Notes under the pieces: model-generated
What the model was told of the DNA's origin: nothing
What the model saw: the letters and a program-made list of their open reading frames with translations, nothing else
Databases searched by the model: none
Made by a program: the position numbers and the translations under genes
From: an uncultured SAR86 cluster bacterium
GTDB taxonomy: Bacteria > Pseudomonadota > Gammaproteobacteria > Magnimaribacterales > AG-339-G14
Assembly: GCA_902595715.1 (NCBI GenBank)
Contig: CACJRI010000007.1
Location: forward strand, 1-64,000
Direction: 5' to 3'
DNA: 64,000 nucleotides
Part shown: one piece after another, positions 39,440 through 48,003 of the stretch
How the letters are laid out: each line of letters opens with the position of its first letter
Position numbering within the stretch: position 1 is the stretch's first letter

Positions 39440-40045
39440 ATGAAAGATTTATTTGATCAAGGTCCTAAAAAAATTATTGAAGGCAGTTTAGGCGAAGTCG
39501 AGTATATAGATGACTTTTTAACCTTATCGGAAGCAGATGAATTTTTTAAAAAAATAAATACAGAAACTCTCTGGAAAAGACCAAAGATGAAATATTATGG
39601 AAAGGAGTTTCGAATACCTAGAGATACAGCATGGTTTGGTGAAAAATCTTATGTCTATTCTGGAATAAGAAATCAGCCTTATCCCATGACTGATGCCTTG
39701 AAAGAACTTAGAAAAAAGGCTGAGGATAAGTGCGCTTACTCGTTTAATTCTCTTTTGATAAACAGGTATAAAAATGGAAACGACAAAGTTGGGTGGCATG
39801 CTGACGATGAGCCAGAGTTGGAAAGCTGCGAAGTGATTGCGTCTATTTCTTTAGGAGCAGCCAGAGAATTTAAGCTCAGAAAAAAAAATTACGATAAACA
39901 AAAAGATACCGTACATAAGATATTGCTTGAACCTGGCAGTCTTTTAATTATGCGTGCCCCCTTACAAAGATTTTGGGAACATGAGGTACCAAGAAAAGTT
40001 ATAGACAGTCCTAGGATTAACCTTACGTTTAGAAGAGTTGATTAA
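39440..40045 (+). CDS. AlkB-type 2-oxoglutarate/Fe(II) dioxygenase
   Basis: Demethylates alkylated bases in DNA or RNA. The 201-residue protein has the iron ligands H120-x-D122 (GWHADDEPELE) and H181 (FWEHEVPR), and the 2-oxoglutarate and signature motif RINLTFR at 192-198. The layout resembles the ALKBH2/3 group more than E. coli AlkB. AAGGAG precedes the ATG. The stop overlaps the start of the next gene, so the two form an operon. Location in the island beside methyltransferase remnants suggests a possible defence or repair role, which is inference. Confidence 0.92.
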   Translation: MKDLFDQGPKKIIEGSLGEVEYIDDFLTLSEADEFFKKINTETLWKRPKMKYYGKEFRIPRDTAWFGEKSYVYSGIRNQPYPMTDALKELRKKAEDKCAYSFNSLLINRYKNGNDKVGWHADDEPELESCEVIASISLGAAREFKLRKKNYDKQKDTVHKILLEPGSLLIMRAPLQRFWEHEVPRKVIDSPRINLTFRRVD

Positions 40046-41366
40046 TTTTGAAGATTTTCCTGATTATCCTGATTGGTCTGATCATTGGGTAAATCTATTA
40101 TCTTCTTTTGCTAGCATTGAGGAAATCAATCATACAGATGAGCTCAAATCTCAGGTCAGAGAGCTGATATTAAACTATGACCGACGGGTTTGGAATTCTT
40201 ATCGTTCTGGATCGATGGAAGATATTTCATATGAAGATAAATACTTTCAGTTAGCTTATTTATTCAGATATTACCCCTTATACGCCAATACACTGTCATA
40301 CATAAATGGCGAAGAGAGCTATGAACACAATATAGACGTGCTAGATGACTGTTTCGTAAATTTAAAGAATGCAACAGGCTTAGATAAACAAAAAATTAAA
40401 ATCAATATTTCTATATTTGGTGGCGGGTCTGCCCCTGAAGCTTATGCTATTACAAAAATGATATGTGCAAAGTTGAGATCTGGCCTGTGGAATTTTGAAT
40501 ATAAGTTATCTGAATGTGAGTTGCACTTTTCTATTTTTGATAAAGATGATTGGAATATTGGAAGAATCCATACGAAAAAACTCTTACGAGATTTTGAGAA
40601 AGAATTAGAACTGGATTTAAGAGGAATAAACGGATTTGAAAAGTTAAGAATTATTTTTGAGGAAAAGAAATTTAATATTAAGTCCGATACTCCAAATTTT
40701 TCTGAGAAACAGGATTTTATGATTTTTCAATTTTGCTTAACAGAATTTAGAGATTTAATAGGTCCAGAAAAGCTAACAAATTTCATAGAACAGATGAGCG
40801 ACTTTTTAAATCAAGGAGGAAAATTAGTTCTCTTAGAAAGAAGTCATTATTCTACCCCAAAAGATTTTTTTGGTTTATTCGAGGAAACATCTAAGTTAGA
40901 ACTATTATTTAACTCAGGGCCCATAGCTCAATTAGCTCAAAATTATTCTGAAATTCCGTCATTCGTTATGAGCGCGTATTCTGAATCAGGTATAAACCTA
41001 CCAAAATTTAATAGATTTGAATACTTCATTTTTAAACAAGAAAGCACTAAAGCAAAAATCCAAGATACAGTCTATGCAGATAACAATATTGAAGTCGAAG
41101 AAACTATTAATGAAACAAACATAGATTATTCTCATGTTCGCATACCAAACATAGAGACAGGAGATAAGATTTCTGTCGATGGATTTGGCAAAGGGACTGT
41201 ATTAAAACGTGTCGAAAAAAATGCAAACATCCAAGTTTATTTCGACCAAAAAGGCATAGTAGGGTTCTCCATTCCTTATCCTAAGATTTCAATAATTAAG
41301 AAATGGTGGGAACACATAGATCCTAATCCCTATAATCCCGATCCCTTTAATAATGAAGAAAAATAG
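40038..41366 (+). CDS. Unknown protein with methyltransferase-like core and SH3-like tail
   Basis: A 442-residue protein I do not recognise by name. The middle has a Rossmann-type signature ISIFGGGSAPEAYAI (about 125-138), later followed by FSIFDKDDW, and GGKLVLLERSH (about 265), together resembling a SAM-dependent methyltransferase fold. The C-terminus (about 370-415) with GDKISVDGFGKGTVLKR resembles the SH3/KOW-like tail of some DNA repair helicases. It starts at TTG 40038, overlapping alkB by 8 bases, so it is coupled to AlkB. A joint role in nucleic-acid modification or repair is a guess. Confidence 0.6.
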   Translation: MINFEDFPDYPDWSDHWVNLLSSFASIEEINHTDELKSQVRELILNYDRRVWNSYRSGSMEDISYEDKYFQLAYLFRYYPLYANTLSYINGEESYEHNIDVLDDCFVNLKNATGLDKQKIKINISIFGGGSAPEAYAITKMICAKLRSGLWNFEYKLSECELHFSIFDKDDWNIGRIHTKKLLRDFEKELELDLRGINGFEKLRIIFEEKKFNIKSDTPNFSEKQDFMIFQFCLTEFRDLIGPEKLTNFIEQMSDFLNQGGKLVLLERSHYSTPKDFFGLFEETSKLELLFNSGPIAQLAQNYSEIPSFVMSAYSESGINLPKFNRFEYFIFKQESTKAKIQDTVYADNNIEVEETINETNIDYSHVRIPNIETGDKISVDGFGKGTVLKRVEKNANIQVYFDQKGIVGFSIPYPKISIIKKWWEHIDPNPYNPDPFNNEEK

Positions 41367-43296: not shown

Positions 43297-44007
43297 ATGG
43301 GAAATTTATTTAATGACACAAACAACATTCTTAAAATTATTGTTGTTTTGGCTTTTAGCAGCTCTTTAGTCTATCTAAATTCTCCTGTCTTCGAAGACCA
43401 ACCTGGGCCGGACTTTTCTGAATTCATGTCCTATTTAATTTATTTGGAAGAGGACGGCTCAACCATGCTTTATAGCGATGCCAAAAATAATACGATAACG
43501 ATCGCTAGTTGGGCTCTTTATCAACATCAAATTTCAGCGCATACCTCTTTTCAAGGCATTATGGCCGATGAAGACTGTCCTTTTTTTGGAATCACACAGA
43601 AACGCATTCGTGATAAGCATGACATCATTGAAGTTCTTAATAACGATGAATCCGTTTTATTGAGCTACTCTGGTTGTAAGACAGGGATAGATAACAAAAC
43701 TCAAAACGATTTCATCAGCTTCAATTCTAAAGAAGGACCCGAAGAAATTGCTCAGTATCATCAAATAGACCAAGAATTTTCTGTATTTTTAATTACCGAT
43801 GGCTGGTGGTGGGCATCAAGATTCAATCGAGAGATAAATTCAAACATCACTCATGGACTTTTGGAAAAGGATCCCCGAAATTTCTGCCGTGTCTGGACGG
43901 AGCTTTTATATGTGCCTATAGACTCATACTACGCTTGGGGGCCTTTGAGAGACTTCTTTTCAGAAGGTCAAGAATATTGTATTCCGGAAATAGAGGAGGT
44001 CTTGTGA
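43297..44007 (+). CDS. Hypothetical exported or membrane-anchored protein
   Basis: A 236-residue protein of unknown function. An N-terminal hydrophobic stretch (ILKIIVVLAFSSSLVYLN) indicates a membrane anchor or uncleaved signal. The rest is soluble, aromatic and acidic, with four cysteines (in EDCPFF, YSGCKTG, NFCRVW and EYCIPE) that could form disulfides in the periplasm. No domain recognised. It begins a plus-strand run with the 39-residue gene, the family-B gene and the family-A gene, downstream of operator 3. Confidence 0.6.
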   Translation: MGNLFNDTNNILKIIVVLAFSSSLVYLNSPVFEDQPGPDFSEFMSYLIYLEEDGSTMLYSDAKNNTITIASWALYQHQISAHTSFQGIMADEDCPFFGITQKRIRDKHDIIEVLNNDESVLLSYSGCKTGIDNKTQNDFISFNSKEGPEEIAQYHQIDQEFSVFLITDGWWWASRFNREINSNITHGLLEKDPRNFCRVWTELLYVPIDSYYAWGPLRDFFSEGQEYCIPEIEEVL

Positions 44008-44126: not shown

Positions 44127-44435
44127 ATGTTTTTTAACGAAGCGCAAATGTTGGTTTTTGGCTTGGTATTTTGGCTCTTTTGGTTTGGCGATGACCTGCT
44201 CGATTTATTAAAGAAATCCAAAAAGTCCTATAATCCTTACGAAGAAATCTCAGAAGAAGATATTTATTACGATCGAGAGAACAAAATATGGCTTTGGGAA
44301 GTGGATGGACACTTATTTTCCAACGAAGAATTTCATATGCAGCAAGGTGGTAAAATCAAAGATTTTGAAAACTGGATTCGAGACAAAGAGCCCATTGATT
44401 CCATTGAAGACATAACCTCTTACAAAGTTCACTGA
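44127..44435 (+). CDS. Family-B protein with N-terminal membrane helix (copy 2)
   Basis: A 102-residue protein of unknown function. Residues about 7-22 form a membrane helix (MLVFGLVFWLFWFG). The remainder is a family-B domain: YYDRENKIWLWEVDGHLFSNEEFH, then G74-G75-x7-W83 and RDKEP. It is the membrane-anchored counterpart of the 67-residue protein at 36831. A family-A gene follows 13 bases downstream, so the B-A order is repeated. No ribosome binding site is evident. Confidence 0.65.
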   Translation: MFFNEAQMLVFGLVFWLFWFGDDLLDLLKKSKKSYNPYEEISEEDIYYDRENKIWLWEVDGHLFSNEEFHMQQGGKIKDFENWIRDKEPIDSIEDITSYKVH

Positions 44436-44448
44436 AACCTTTAAAATT

Positions 44449-44640
44449 ATGAAAAAACATTTAATACAATACCTCAAACTTCTAAGCCATCTTCGCGATG
44501 ATCAATTTGAAGAGATCAAAGACATAATAAATTCTTATACTAAAAGAGGAGAAAAACCTAAAACTGAGGATATGTTTGATATTGCGTTGAATTTACTTTC
44601 TAAAAATTTTGAAAAAGATATAAATCAAAAATTAAGCTAA
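44449..44640 (+). CDS. Small protein, family A (copy 3)
   Basis: A 63-residue helical protein of unknown function, closest to the copy at 37037-37231. Shared elements are LIQYLKLLSHLRDDQFEEI, a Gly-Glu-Lys linker, and DMFDIALNLLSKNFEKD. It follows a family-B gene. Its last 4 bases overlap the stop of a convergent HAD gene. The other HAD gene in the island also lies beside a family-A gene, so A and HAD are linked twice, in different orientations. Confidence 0.65.
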   Translation: MKKHLIQYLKLLSHLRDDQFEEIKDIINSYTKRGEKPKTEDMFDIALNLLSKNFEKDINQKLS

Positions 44641-45080
44641 TCAAAATCACTTTCGTTTACTTTAAAAACTTTTAATCCAAGACTTTGCCAAAGTGCACAA
44701 AGTTCATCGTCGTTTTCAAATACCATGTAGACTTTTGAGCTTTTAAAATTCTTTTTGAAAAGTTCTTTTTTAATGTCAACTTTATTTCTTCTATCCTTAT
44801 CTGCCCTCATTAATATTTTTATATCAAATTGAAAAAATTTCTCCAGCCATGCTGTAGTAGAAAGTCTATATTTTTCAGGTCTGCCTGTAATGAAAATGAT
44901 TTCAAAACCATCTCCATCAAGCTTATTTATCTTTTCTATAATTTTAAGTATGGGTTGATCTTTGTCTAAGTGATTAAAAAAGTTATGCCAATCCTTCTTT
45001 TTTGTTAAAAAGTGCTGCCTATGAAGATTATTTGCAACTGTGCCATCAATATCGCAAATAATTATATTTTTCCTTTTCAT
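44637..45080 (-). CDS. HAD phosphatase, polynucleotide 3'-phosphatase-like
   Basis: A 147-residue HAD protein with motif I CDIDGTVANN (Asp10, Asp12), motif II FITGRPEKYR and motif IV FENDDELC. The segment LMRADKDRRNKVDIKKELF resembles the phosphatase domain of T4 polynucleotide kinase, which removes 3'-phosphates from nucleic-acid ends. No kinase domain is present. End healing after RNA cleavage would fit the neighbouring HEPN-STAND gene, but that link is speculative. It is divergent from that gene across 67 bases and convergent with a family-A gene. Confidence 0.75.
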   Translation of the reverse strand: MKRKNIIICDIDGTVANNLHRQHFLTKKKDWHNFFNHLDKDQPILKIIEKINKLDGDGFEIIFITGRPEKYRLSTTAWLEKFFQFDIKILMRADKDRRNKVDIKKELFKKNFKSSKVYMVFENDDELCALWQSLGLKVFKVNESDFD

Positions 45081-45147
45081 TTATTTGATTAACAGTTGAC
45101 AAAATTATAAGGAATTTAGTCTGAAGTTTTGATATAAATTAAGAGTA

Positions 45148-48003
45148 ATGAAGAAAGATCTTACAAAAAGTCCTTTGCAGTTAAAAACATATTTTCTTGT
45201 CCAAGCAATAGAAAATGATCTTACACAATATTTACGAGAATTAACTCAAGAACAGCGAATAAATAAGACTTCCTTCCTCAACGATGCAGAAGCGGAAGCA
45301 AGGACTTTGATTTTTTATAATAGTGATCCCAAAGTTAAAGACCTTGATCCTCAATCACTTGCTGGAATTCAGTCATTTATATCTTTTCTATCTTTGCCTT
45401 CAAAAGTTCGGGGAATTCTTCAATTATCATCCATGCTAAAAAAAAGTGAGCGGGATGTTTTTAAAACAATTAACCAAACCAAGCTTTTATATGGTTTAAG
45501 GACAAAAGTTTCTCATACAGATGGCCAATTTTTGAAAGAAGTAAATTCTGAGGAATTTATAAATCTTTTAGACTTTTCGAAACATATTCTTGGAGAGCAT
45601 AAAAAAATTTTTCCCCAAACAATAGAAGCATTTTCTTTTATTGATTCAGATCCTGATATAAAAACGATTTTAAATCATATTGGACCTGAGTTTAAAGAAA
45701 ACACCTTTCTAATTAATAATGCACCAAAGCCAAATTATTTTGATACAGGATTTGTAGGCAGACAAGAGATAATTCAAAATGTGATTCAGGAGTTGGAACT
45801 CAACACGCCTATAATAACAATTTATGGTGAAGGAGGCCTGGGGAAAACGGCCTTAGCTAGAAAAATCATTGAACAGATTTCAAATTCTGAGGTTTTGGAA
45901 GATGTTTATGAAGTAATATACTGGCACTCCTCTAAACAAGAAGAATTTACTTTTGAAGGATTAAAGTCTATTGATTTTGATCTCTTAGAGAACATTCCAA
46001 AAGAAATAGAAGATCAATATGACTACACTTTAGAAGCCTTAAAAGAAGAGACTGGTCAAAAAGGATCAAAAATTCTTTTTGTAATAGATAATTTAGAAAC
46101 AGAATTGGTAAAAGATAGAAAAAAGACCTTAGAACATATAGGTTATTTGAGGACTTTTGGACAACTCATAATTACATCGAGAACTAGGTTAGGACAATTG
46201 GAAAAGCCTATTCGAATAACTCCTTTTTCTCTTCAAGAAACCAAAGTTTTTTTGAGGAACATTGCAAAGCAAACTAATAATGTAAATGTTTTAAGGGCAG
46301 GAGATGAGATTTTAGAAAAATGGGGATTGGAATTAAACTATTCGCCTCTATCTATAAAATTGTTTGCTTTTGCATTAAATCAAGGTGTTAGCGCAGAGAC
46401 TTTTTTGTCGAGCACAAACAAAAACGATGTTAACAATTTTTGTTTTAAAAATGTTTTTGAAACATTGTCTGAGAGAGCTAAGGAATTGCTATTTATTCTG
46501 AGACAAATAAATAGGCCAGCCTCCCAATTTGAAATTCTTCACTTAGCAAAATGTTTTGAAGAAACCAGTGATGTTCTTTGGGATCAAGACGTCTTAAACG
46601 AAGCAAGATTAAATTTAGCTGCTTCATGTTTTATTGATGATGAATATAGCAATAATCAACAATTAACAAAAATTAATGATTTGGCAAAGAATTTTGTTCG
46701 TTTTAATCAACGTGATATGTTCCGTGATATTTCAGACTCTATATCTGCTTCTATTGCAAAGCAGGTTAGTGACTTAAGAAATCTTCCTAATTTAAATCTG
46801 TATGGATCAGATATCTTTGATAATTATTATTTTATATTAAATGACGAATCATCCATAGAAGAACGAGCAGTTGCAAGAGAAATAAGAAAAATTGATAAGC
46901 TATGGAAACATTATAGAAATGGCCAAGATAAAGATGGATTGGCCGTGCAAAAAGAAACCCTAGAAAAAGAAGATTGGGTTAATTGGCTCAATCAATACAG
47001 GGAAGAAAAAGCATTAGAGTTAGTAAAGAATTACCAAAAGTTGGAGGACAGTGGTGCTCAATCTCCTGCTTTATATAGAGCTTGGGGATTAATGCTTGCC
47101 AATGCGAATCCTAGTCAATTTACCGATGTAATAGAATTATTTTTTAGAGCATACGACAGAGCAACAACAGAAAAAGGAAAGGCTCAGGTTCTCTATAACA
47201 TCTCGGTGGCTTATCAAAGAGACAAAAATTATGAAGAAGCATGGAAATTTGCTCAAGAATTAAATTCTTTAGTTGATGAGCCAAAAGCAAAAATTCAGCT
47301 GGCTTCAACCCTACATGATATAGCAAAGAATGAGGAAGCTAATAAAATACTATCTGAAATGGAAGAGAGTGAAATTAGCTCGAACAGAAGCAGGTATTTA
47401 CCTTTAATCTTTCACTTAATGTTGAAGCATAGTTATTTTGAATTCAACCAGATTGAAAATCTTCAAGATAAATTATTTTTCGCCGAGAATGCCTTTGCAT
47501 CATTAAGCAAAAGAATTAATGTTAACTATATTGATGAAACAAATGAGAAAAATTTAGTTAGCCTCGTGATGAGCTACATACACTTTTGTGGAATAGTTTA
47601 TGACAAGGATGGTGAAAAGATTCCACTGGGAATAAATACTTTGTTTAAAGAAAATAAATATATTTTGGATAATGTTGAGCATCAAGCAGTCTTAACTAAA
47701 CTAAAAAGTTCATATCCTGATCTAGACTTAAAAAAAGAAATAAATTTGCCTATAAGGAAGCGATTTGTCACTGACCAAGAAGATGTTGTAATTTCAAATA
47801 TAGAATCTATTTCAGCTATTAAAAGTTATGGTTTTATAAAGAAAACTGAGAAAACTGATCGTATTTTTTTTCATTTTGACGACGTAAAAGGAAACCCAAT
47901 GGAATTGGAAATGAACTCTAAAGTATCTTTTAACATCAAGACCTACAAAAAAAGAAATGAAGATGCTACAAAGGCAATCAATATAACATTAGTAAATTCG
48001 TAA
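45148..48003 (+). CDS. STAND NTPase with HEPN-like N-terminus and cold-shock-like C-terminus
   Basis: A 951-residue multidomain protein. Residues about 1-165 are helical with R118-x4-H123 (LRTKVSH), the RNase motif of HEPN domains. The NTPase core has Walker A GEGGLGKTAL (227-236), Walker B ILFVIDNLE (309-317) and the sensor ITSRTR (342-347), as in NB-ARC/STAND switches. A winged-helix and TPR-like helical region follows to about 870. The last 72 residues resemble a cold-shock domain, with YGFI (894-897) and FFHF (907-910). Such layouts occur in antiviral sensors. Its ATG follows a TATAAAT by 8 bases. Confidence 0.85.
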   Translation: MKKDLTKSPLQLKTYFLVQAIENDLTQYLRELTQEQRINKTSFLNDAEAEARTLIFYNSDPKVKDLDPQSLAGIQSFISFLSLPSKVRGILQLSSMLKKSERDVFKTINQTKLLYGLRTKVSHTDGQFLKEVNSEEFINLLDFSKHILGEHKKIFPQTIEAFSFIDSDPDIKTILNHIGPEFKENTFLINNAPKPNYFDTGFVGRQEIIQNVIQELELNTPIITIYGEGGLGKTALARKIIEQISNSEVLEDVYEVIYWHSSKQEEFTFEGLKSIDFDLLENIPKEIEDQYDYTLEALKEETGQKGSKILFVIDNLETELVKDRKKTLEHIGYLRTFGQLIITSRTRLGQLEKPIRITPFSLQETKVFLRNIAKQTNNVNVLRAGDEILEKWGLELNYSPLSIKLFAFALNQGVSAETFLSSTNKNDVNNFCFKNVFETLSERAKELLFILRQINRPASQFEILHLAKCFEETSDVLWDQDVLNEARLNLAASCFIDDEYSNNQQLTKINDLAKNFVRFNQRDMFRDISDSISASIAKQVSDLRNLPNLNLYGSDIFDNYYFILNDESSIEERAVAREIRKIDKLWKHYRNGQDKDGLAVQKETLEKEDWVNWLNQYREEKALELVKNYQKLEDSGAQSPALYRAWGLMLANANPSQFTDVIELFFRAYDRATTEKGKAQVLYNISVAYQRDKNYEEAWKFAQELNSLVDEPKAKIQLASTLHDIAKNEEANKILSEMEESEISSNRSRYLPLIFHLMLKHSYFEFNQIENLQDKLFFAENAFASLSKRINVNYIDETNEKNLVSLVMSYIHFCGIVYDKDGEKIPLGINTLFKENKYILDNVEHQAVLTKLKSSYPDLDLKKEINLPIRKRFVTDQEDVVISNIESISAIKSYGFIKKTEKTDRIFFHFDDVKGNPMELEMNSKVSFNIKTYKKRNEDATKAINITLVNS

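Follow-up and report, generated by a model that had tools for sequence, protein, structure and literature searches.

A HEPN-STAND-TPR-cold-shock protein carried by a cassette in a SAR86 defence hotspot: a probable NLR-like anti-phage system

Can bacterial NLR-like proteins sense infection through an OB fold that binds RNA or DNA, in place of repeats that recognise phage proteins? The question is raised by a gene in the window studied here, a 64,000-nucleotide stretch of a contig (CACJRI010000007.1) from an uncultured SAR86 cluster bacterium with a streamlined genome (1.2 Mb, 37% GC). The open reading frame at 45148-48003 (+ strand) starts with ATG, has no internal stop and encodes a protein of 951 amino acids. 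A first-pass annotation of the letters had proposed that this protein joins an RNase-type helical domain, an NB-ARC-like NTPase, helical repeats and a cold-shock-type tail, and that it acts against viruses.

Domain architecture and family

The intact reading frame and a whole-family alignment gave the domain order HEPN-NB-ARC(STAND)-TPR-CSD. The NTPase occupies residues ~195-470 (45730-46557) and scored 30.2 bits for Pfam NB-ARC against a gathering cutoff of 23.5. Both nucleotide-binding motifs are intact, as had been read from the single sequence. In Walker A (G227-T234 within YGEGGLGKT; 45826-45849) none of the 44 aligned sequences varies at G229, G230, G232 or K233, and the same holds for D314, N315, L316 and E317 in Walker B and the residues that follow it (LFVIDNLE, L310-E317; 46075-46098). 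The proposed helical repeats were recovered as AlphaFold helices at residues ~511-865 (46678-47742). This region is TPR-like by the matches of its relatives, its own repeat matches all falling below the Pfam cutoffs. The C-terminal cold-shock domain (CSD; residues 880-951, 47785-48000) was found by Pfam at residues 886-942 (PF00313, E=2.7e-9, 37.2 bits against a cutoff of 27) and is predicted by AlphaFold2 to form five strands. It carries the motifs YGFI (894-897) and FFHF (907-910), which are RNP1-/RNP2-like and had prompted the cold-shock assignment.

The whole-chain AlphaFold2 model, built with 38 sequences, reached a pLDDT of 77 and showed helices up to residue 177, a P-loop core, a helical region and the five C-terminal strands. 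Foldseek placed the STAND-TPR protein 6mfv, CED-4 and Apaf-1 among the first matches to this model. No PADLOC or NCBIfam defence model matched the whole protein, Avs models were absent from its matches in both sets, and scans with Pfam, PADLOC and NCBIfam returned no named family for its N-terminus.

The first-pass annotation had staked its reading on the two terminal folds, and the N-terminal one also came out as proposed. Residues 1-176 (45148-45675), modelled alone, gave a pLDDT of 89.8. The top rows from VIA-align were mostly HEPN structures: the AbiF protein PbAbiF (8vz6) ranked first with a Z-score of 7.5, followed at Z 5.3-6.1 by the HEPN toxins 7ae6, 5yep and 7bxo of toxin-antitoxin systems and, at rank 9, by the HEPN protein 2hsb; Z-scores of 5.3-7.5 are low for a helical bundle, and unrelated bundles reach the same range. 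Foldseek found no significant match to the N-terminal model, with PbAbiF only third (E=2). With low Z-scores and Foldseek silent, the case for HEPN therefore rests on the agreement of the fold ranking with an invariant catalytic set and with HEPN_Swt1 matches among the relatives. An R-x4-H motif, here R118-T-K-V-S-H123 (45499-45516), is weak evidence in one sequence, yet it carries weight because its Arg and His are invariant in all 44 sequences, where the family consensus is R-N-x3-H. The only other invariant column of the N-terminal domain is the acidic residue E22 (45211-45213), and the three residues fit the HEPN active site as described by Anantharaman et al. (2013; PMC3710099). The N-terminal domain is thus most likely a HEPN fold of the Abi2/Swt1 group with predicted catalytic activity.

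At one position the motif departs from its canonical form. The residue after the catalytic Arg is Asn in 43 of the 44 sequences and Thr (T119) in the 951-residue protein alone; Thr is polar, though not the usual N, D or H of HEPN domains. In the Ex3[KR] motif, where E22 is universal (44/44), the position four residues on is K or R in 24 of 44 sequences and Thr here.

The relatives were collected by tblastn in plasmids, which gave proteins from Planococcus, Rhizobium and Acinetobacter; these were aligned with the 951-residue protein and the alignment was searched against one genome per species. This gave 53 loci, about 40 of which encode full-length proteins of 842-1006 residues, spread over Proteobacteria, Firmicutes, Actinobacteria (Streptomyces), Bacteroidetes, Chloroflexi, Planctomycetes and Myxococcales. 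Almost every full-length relative shows the N-terminal R-N-x3-H, NB-ARC and helical repeats, followed by a tail that resembles a CSD. The architecture is not a rare one: dozens of genomes carry it, and an in silico listing dates from 2013. Among 38 members scanned with Pfam, NB-ARC was found in 37, TPR_19 in 24, CSD in 20, TPR_2 in 19 and HEPN_Swt1 in six; the 951-residue protein itself had no HEPN_Swt1 match. F896 of the CSD is kept in 43 of the 44 aligned sequences. The PADLOC candidate model PDC-M34B matched 19 of the 38 members, covering the N-terminal ~120 residues (the HEPN region) in those inspected; our literature search found no paper naming PDC-M34. In a Planctomycetales relative (L035, 9974-12994) an S1-like OB domain apparently replaces the CSD, and two tandem cold-shock-like domains are apparent at the C-termini of four others (L018, L020, L025 and L030).

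Searches of viral contigs and phage records found no relatives of the 951-residue protein. Among 60 genomes of its kin and 369 of its class, searches with the whole protein recovered one partial copy, in genome G005, with 89% identity across its 111 residues, and otherwise matches to the NTPase region only. Two of the latter that were inspected, L003 and L008, are Clp-type ATPases.

An inserted cassette in a defence hotspot

The gene had been described as standing alone beside a phosphatase gene. The neighbour is indeed a phosphatase of the HAD/PNKP type, but the two genes do not stand by themselves: together with a 63-residue ORF they make up one inserted cassette of ~3.57 kb (44436-48003). 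Four genomes of the same genus lack the cassette and show a clean junction at its site. In these genomes (G003, G006, G014 and G015) the homologues of the genes at 44127 and 48015 lie side by side, ~22-24 bp apart. The GC content of the cassette is 30.5%, against 36-38% around it. In G005 the left half of the same cassette, including the phosphatase-HEPN pair, is present up to the contig end. The gene was gained as part of this AT-rich insert, around which no convincing flanking or terminal repeats were found.

The 63-residue ORF (44449-44640, + strand), read from the DNA, lies at the left end of the cassette and has a homologue in G005. The phosphatase (44637-45080, - strand; 147 residues) is of the PNKP 3'-phosphatase type, with an intact DIDGT motif and a Pfam HAD_PNKP match at E=7e-24. 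It is 34-36% identical, over 95% of its length, to the T4-type phage 3'-phosphatase/5'-kinase, with which it shares the phosphatase domain, but it stands alone without the kinase domain. The phosphatase and HEPN genes are divergently transcribed, with 67 bp between their start codons. We considered the phosphatase as a family-wide partner and rejected this, as no homologue lies beside other members in the flanks examined. Among the sequences examined the pairing was seen in this genus only, and it thus represents one event.

Across the genus, the region that received the cassette is bounded by WYL/RmuC genes on one side and thermonuclease/esterase genes on the other. It holds PsyrTA in G015, a type IIG restriction enzyme with a PLD-SNF2 helicase in G006, AIPR/Mza-like proteins in G014 and, in G011, a Mokosh-like helicase-RNase H protein, of which G005 carries a comparable pair in the form of two ORFs. 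The G006 and G014 systems were assigned to the region from its right-hand flank alone. Since these systems occupy it across the genus, the region is a defence hotspot. The loci of these systems are L092 7259-10585, L094 4721-11492, L098 11489-17551 and L090 6740-10084.

Homologues elsewhere also lie near defence genes. The two nearest genes on each side of the relatives include HsdR, a type III restriction subunit, BrxL, PglZ, GajA, GajB, Avs2 and Dsr2, in a plain listing made without a control set. Genomic context gives strong support to the antiviral reading, though the effect itself is inferred.

The same variable region of the window contains, at 39440-41366, an ORF that by eye is AlkB/2OG-oxygenase-like and a 442-residue ORF without an above-cutoff family; the latter may be another defence or mobile gene. 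In G003 (L097, 157-988 and 7155-8267) the homologues of RmuC and of the genes at 43297 and 44127 match in overlapping frames, which are probably assembly frameshifts.

Proposed mechanism and its alternatives

Our preferred reading, which we hold to be probable, is that the 951-residue protein is a single-protein NLR-like anti-phage system in which a STAND module switches a HEPN RNase and the CSD serves as a nucleic-acid binder. The resting protein would be kept inactive by its NB-ARC module. An infection-linked signal would be registered by the C-terminal half, made of the TPR-like and cold-shock parts; here the CSD would help to recognise the signal or the substrate by binding single-stranded RNA or DNA. 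Nucleotide exchange would then lead to oligomerisation, pairing the HEPN domains as dimers, and these would cut RNA through E22, R118 and H123, so that phage growth or the host is stopped. The STAND-switched RNase is a likely mechanism, in which metal-independent RNase activity, nucleotide-dependent oligomerisation and nucleic-acid binding by the CSD are all predicted. HEPN RNases leave 2',3'-cyclic phosphate ends (PMC3710099), and a HEPN gene accompanied by a phosphatase for 3' ends is therefore suggestive; as a tentative possibility, the linked enzyme may act on these ends in an accessory role. The family as now defined supplies invariant residues for mutation, and the hotspot a natural comparison of presence and absence.

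The reading that competes best places the sensor in the TPR-like helices. The CSD would then recruit or position the RNA that the HEPN RNase cuts, or tether the protein to ribosomes or mRNA. C-terminal repeat sensing has been proposed for TIR-STAND-TPR defence proteins (PMC9122126). The CSD is also the variable domain of the family, with a Pfam match in about half of the members, one S1-like OB end and some apparent tandem copies, and because of this variation a generic RNA-binding module fits it better than a specific pattern receptor. On the other side, the repeat region of the 951-residue protein has itself diverged to below the cutoffs. We regard a TPR sensor as a serious possibility, at somewhat under an even chance.

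The first-pass annotation had instead put the CSD in the place of the sensor. This is unsupported as stated, because the TPR-like region is still there and is equally eligible as sensor. A fuller version would make the CSD a pathogen receptor for foreign or abnormal single-stranded RNA or DNA that turns on the HEPN RNase, with the phosphatase stripping cyclic-phosphate ends and so blocking rejoining by ligase. If this were true, the cut RNA could not be rejoined by a ligase that needs such ends. The combined receptor and phosphatase scheme we consider unlikely.

A toxin or stress-response RNase, serving plasmid maintenance or dormancy and not primarily anti-phage, would accord with the plasmid relatives, which adjoin RelE-type toxin-antitoxin genes on plasmids of Acinetobacter (8 kb) and Planococcus. 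By contrast, the region in SAR86 holds known anti-phage systems across the genus, and the protein has a STAND switch. There is also no obvious antitoxin partner, as the phosphatase gene does not accompany other family members in the flanks examined. Such a role is improbable. Returning to the STAND-switched HEPN RNase, the points against full activity of this copy are T119, where every other aligned sequence has Asn, and, downstream of the His, K-E in place of R-P; these changes could weaken catalysis. It is nevertheless quite unlikely that the copy is a catalytically impaired RNA-binding regulator or is decaying: T119 is unique among the 44 sequences, the R-P pair is lost together with an insertion, and the position after the Arg, which HEPN domains typically fill with N, D or H, has a part in KEN-domain catalysis (PMC3710099), but E22, R118, H123 and both Walker motifs are all retained, 951 codons are open and the G005 copy is closely similar.

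Relation to described proteins

The HEPN-STAND-TPR-CSD architecture is already known from in silico work. Anantharaman et al. (2013; PMC3710099) reported fusions of STAND-ATPase, TPR and S1 domains to Abi2/Swt1-type HEPN domains, mostly active, and mentioned bacterial HEPN-STAND proteins with, in some cases, C-terminal cold-shock-like OB folds. Their table names Npun_F6454, MED222_16016 and Desac_1927, and a Bacillus cereus protein is named separately. The record consists of a table entry and one sentence, derived from sequence. Going by this published description, the 951-residue protein shares the domain order, the N-terminal HEPN domain with Rx4H and the C-terminal nucleic-acid-binding OB fold, and the S1-like end of the Planctomycetales relative may be compared with the 'STAND, TPR, S1' entry. 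It differs in having Thr for Asn after the Arg and in sitting with a PNKP-type phosphatase. A search of the open literature, with most subscription-journal papers outside it, found no experiments on this architecture. To this the present analysis adds evidence from across the family, the hotspot, the cassette that links the gene to a phosphatase and the Thr after the catalytic Arg in this copy.

With the Avs, bNACHT and TIR-STAND-TPR NLR-like proteins the 951-residue protein shares an effector-STAND-repeat layout and a putative sensing C-terminal half, whereas its effector is a HEPN RNase and its tail a cold-shock domain. The AbiF/Abi2 HEPN of PbAbiF, which heads the structural matches of the modelled N-terminal domain, was seen in 8vz6 as a dimer bound to non-coding RNA; the STAND, TPR and CSD parts are unmatched there. 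CoCoNuT type IV systems are built on McrB-type GTPases, in contrast to the STAND NTPase that here shares one chain with HEPN. A paper on these systems discusses HEPN and cold-shock domains in the setting of RNA-targeting defence (PMC11090510).

A profile of the N-terminal domain also recovered HD-CBS-HEPN proteins with R-N-x3-H, their HD and CBS domains being read from sequence. The 2013 survey (PMC3710099) gives this architecture in the table entry that also covers the STAND, TPR and S1 fusions, and a CBS-HEPN protein, DS-11, has been reported as anti-phage (PMC13092281). Two HD-CBS-HEPN-like proteins of this kind were found in the same class as the SAR86 host, at L102 430-1932 and L106 1462-2871.
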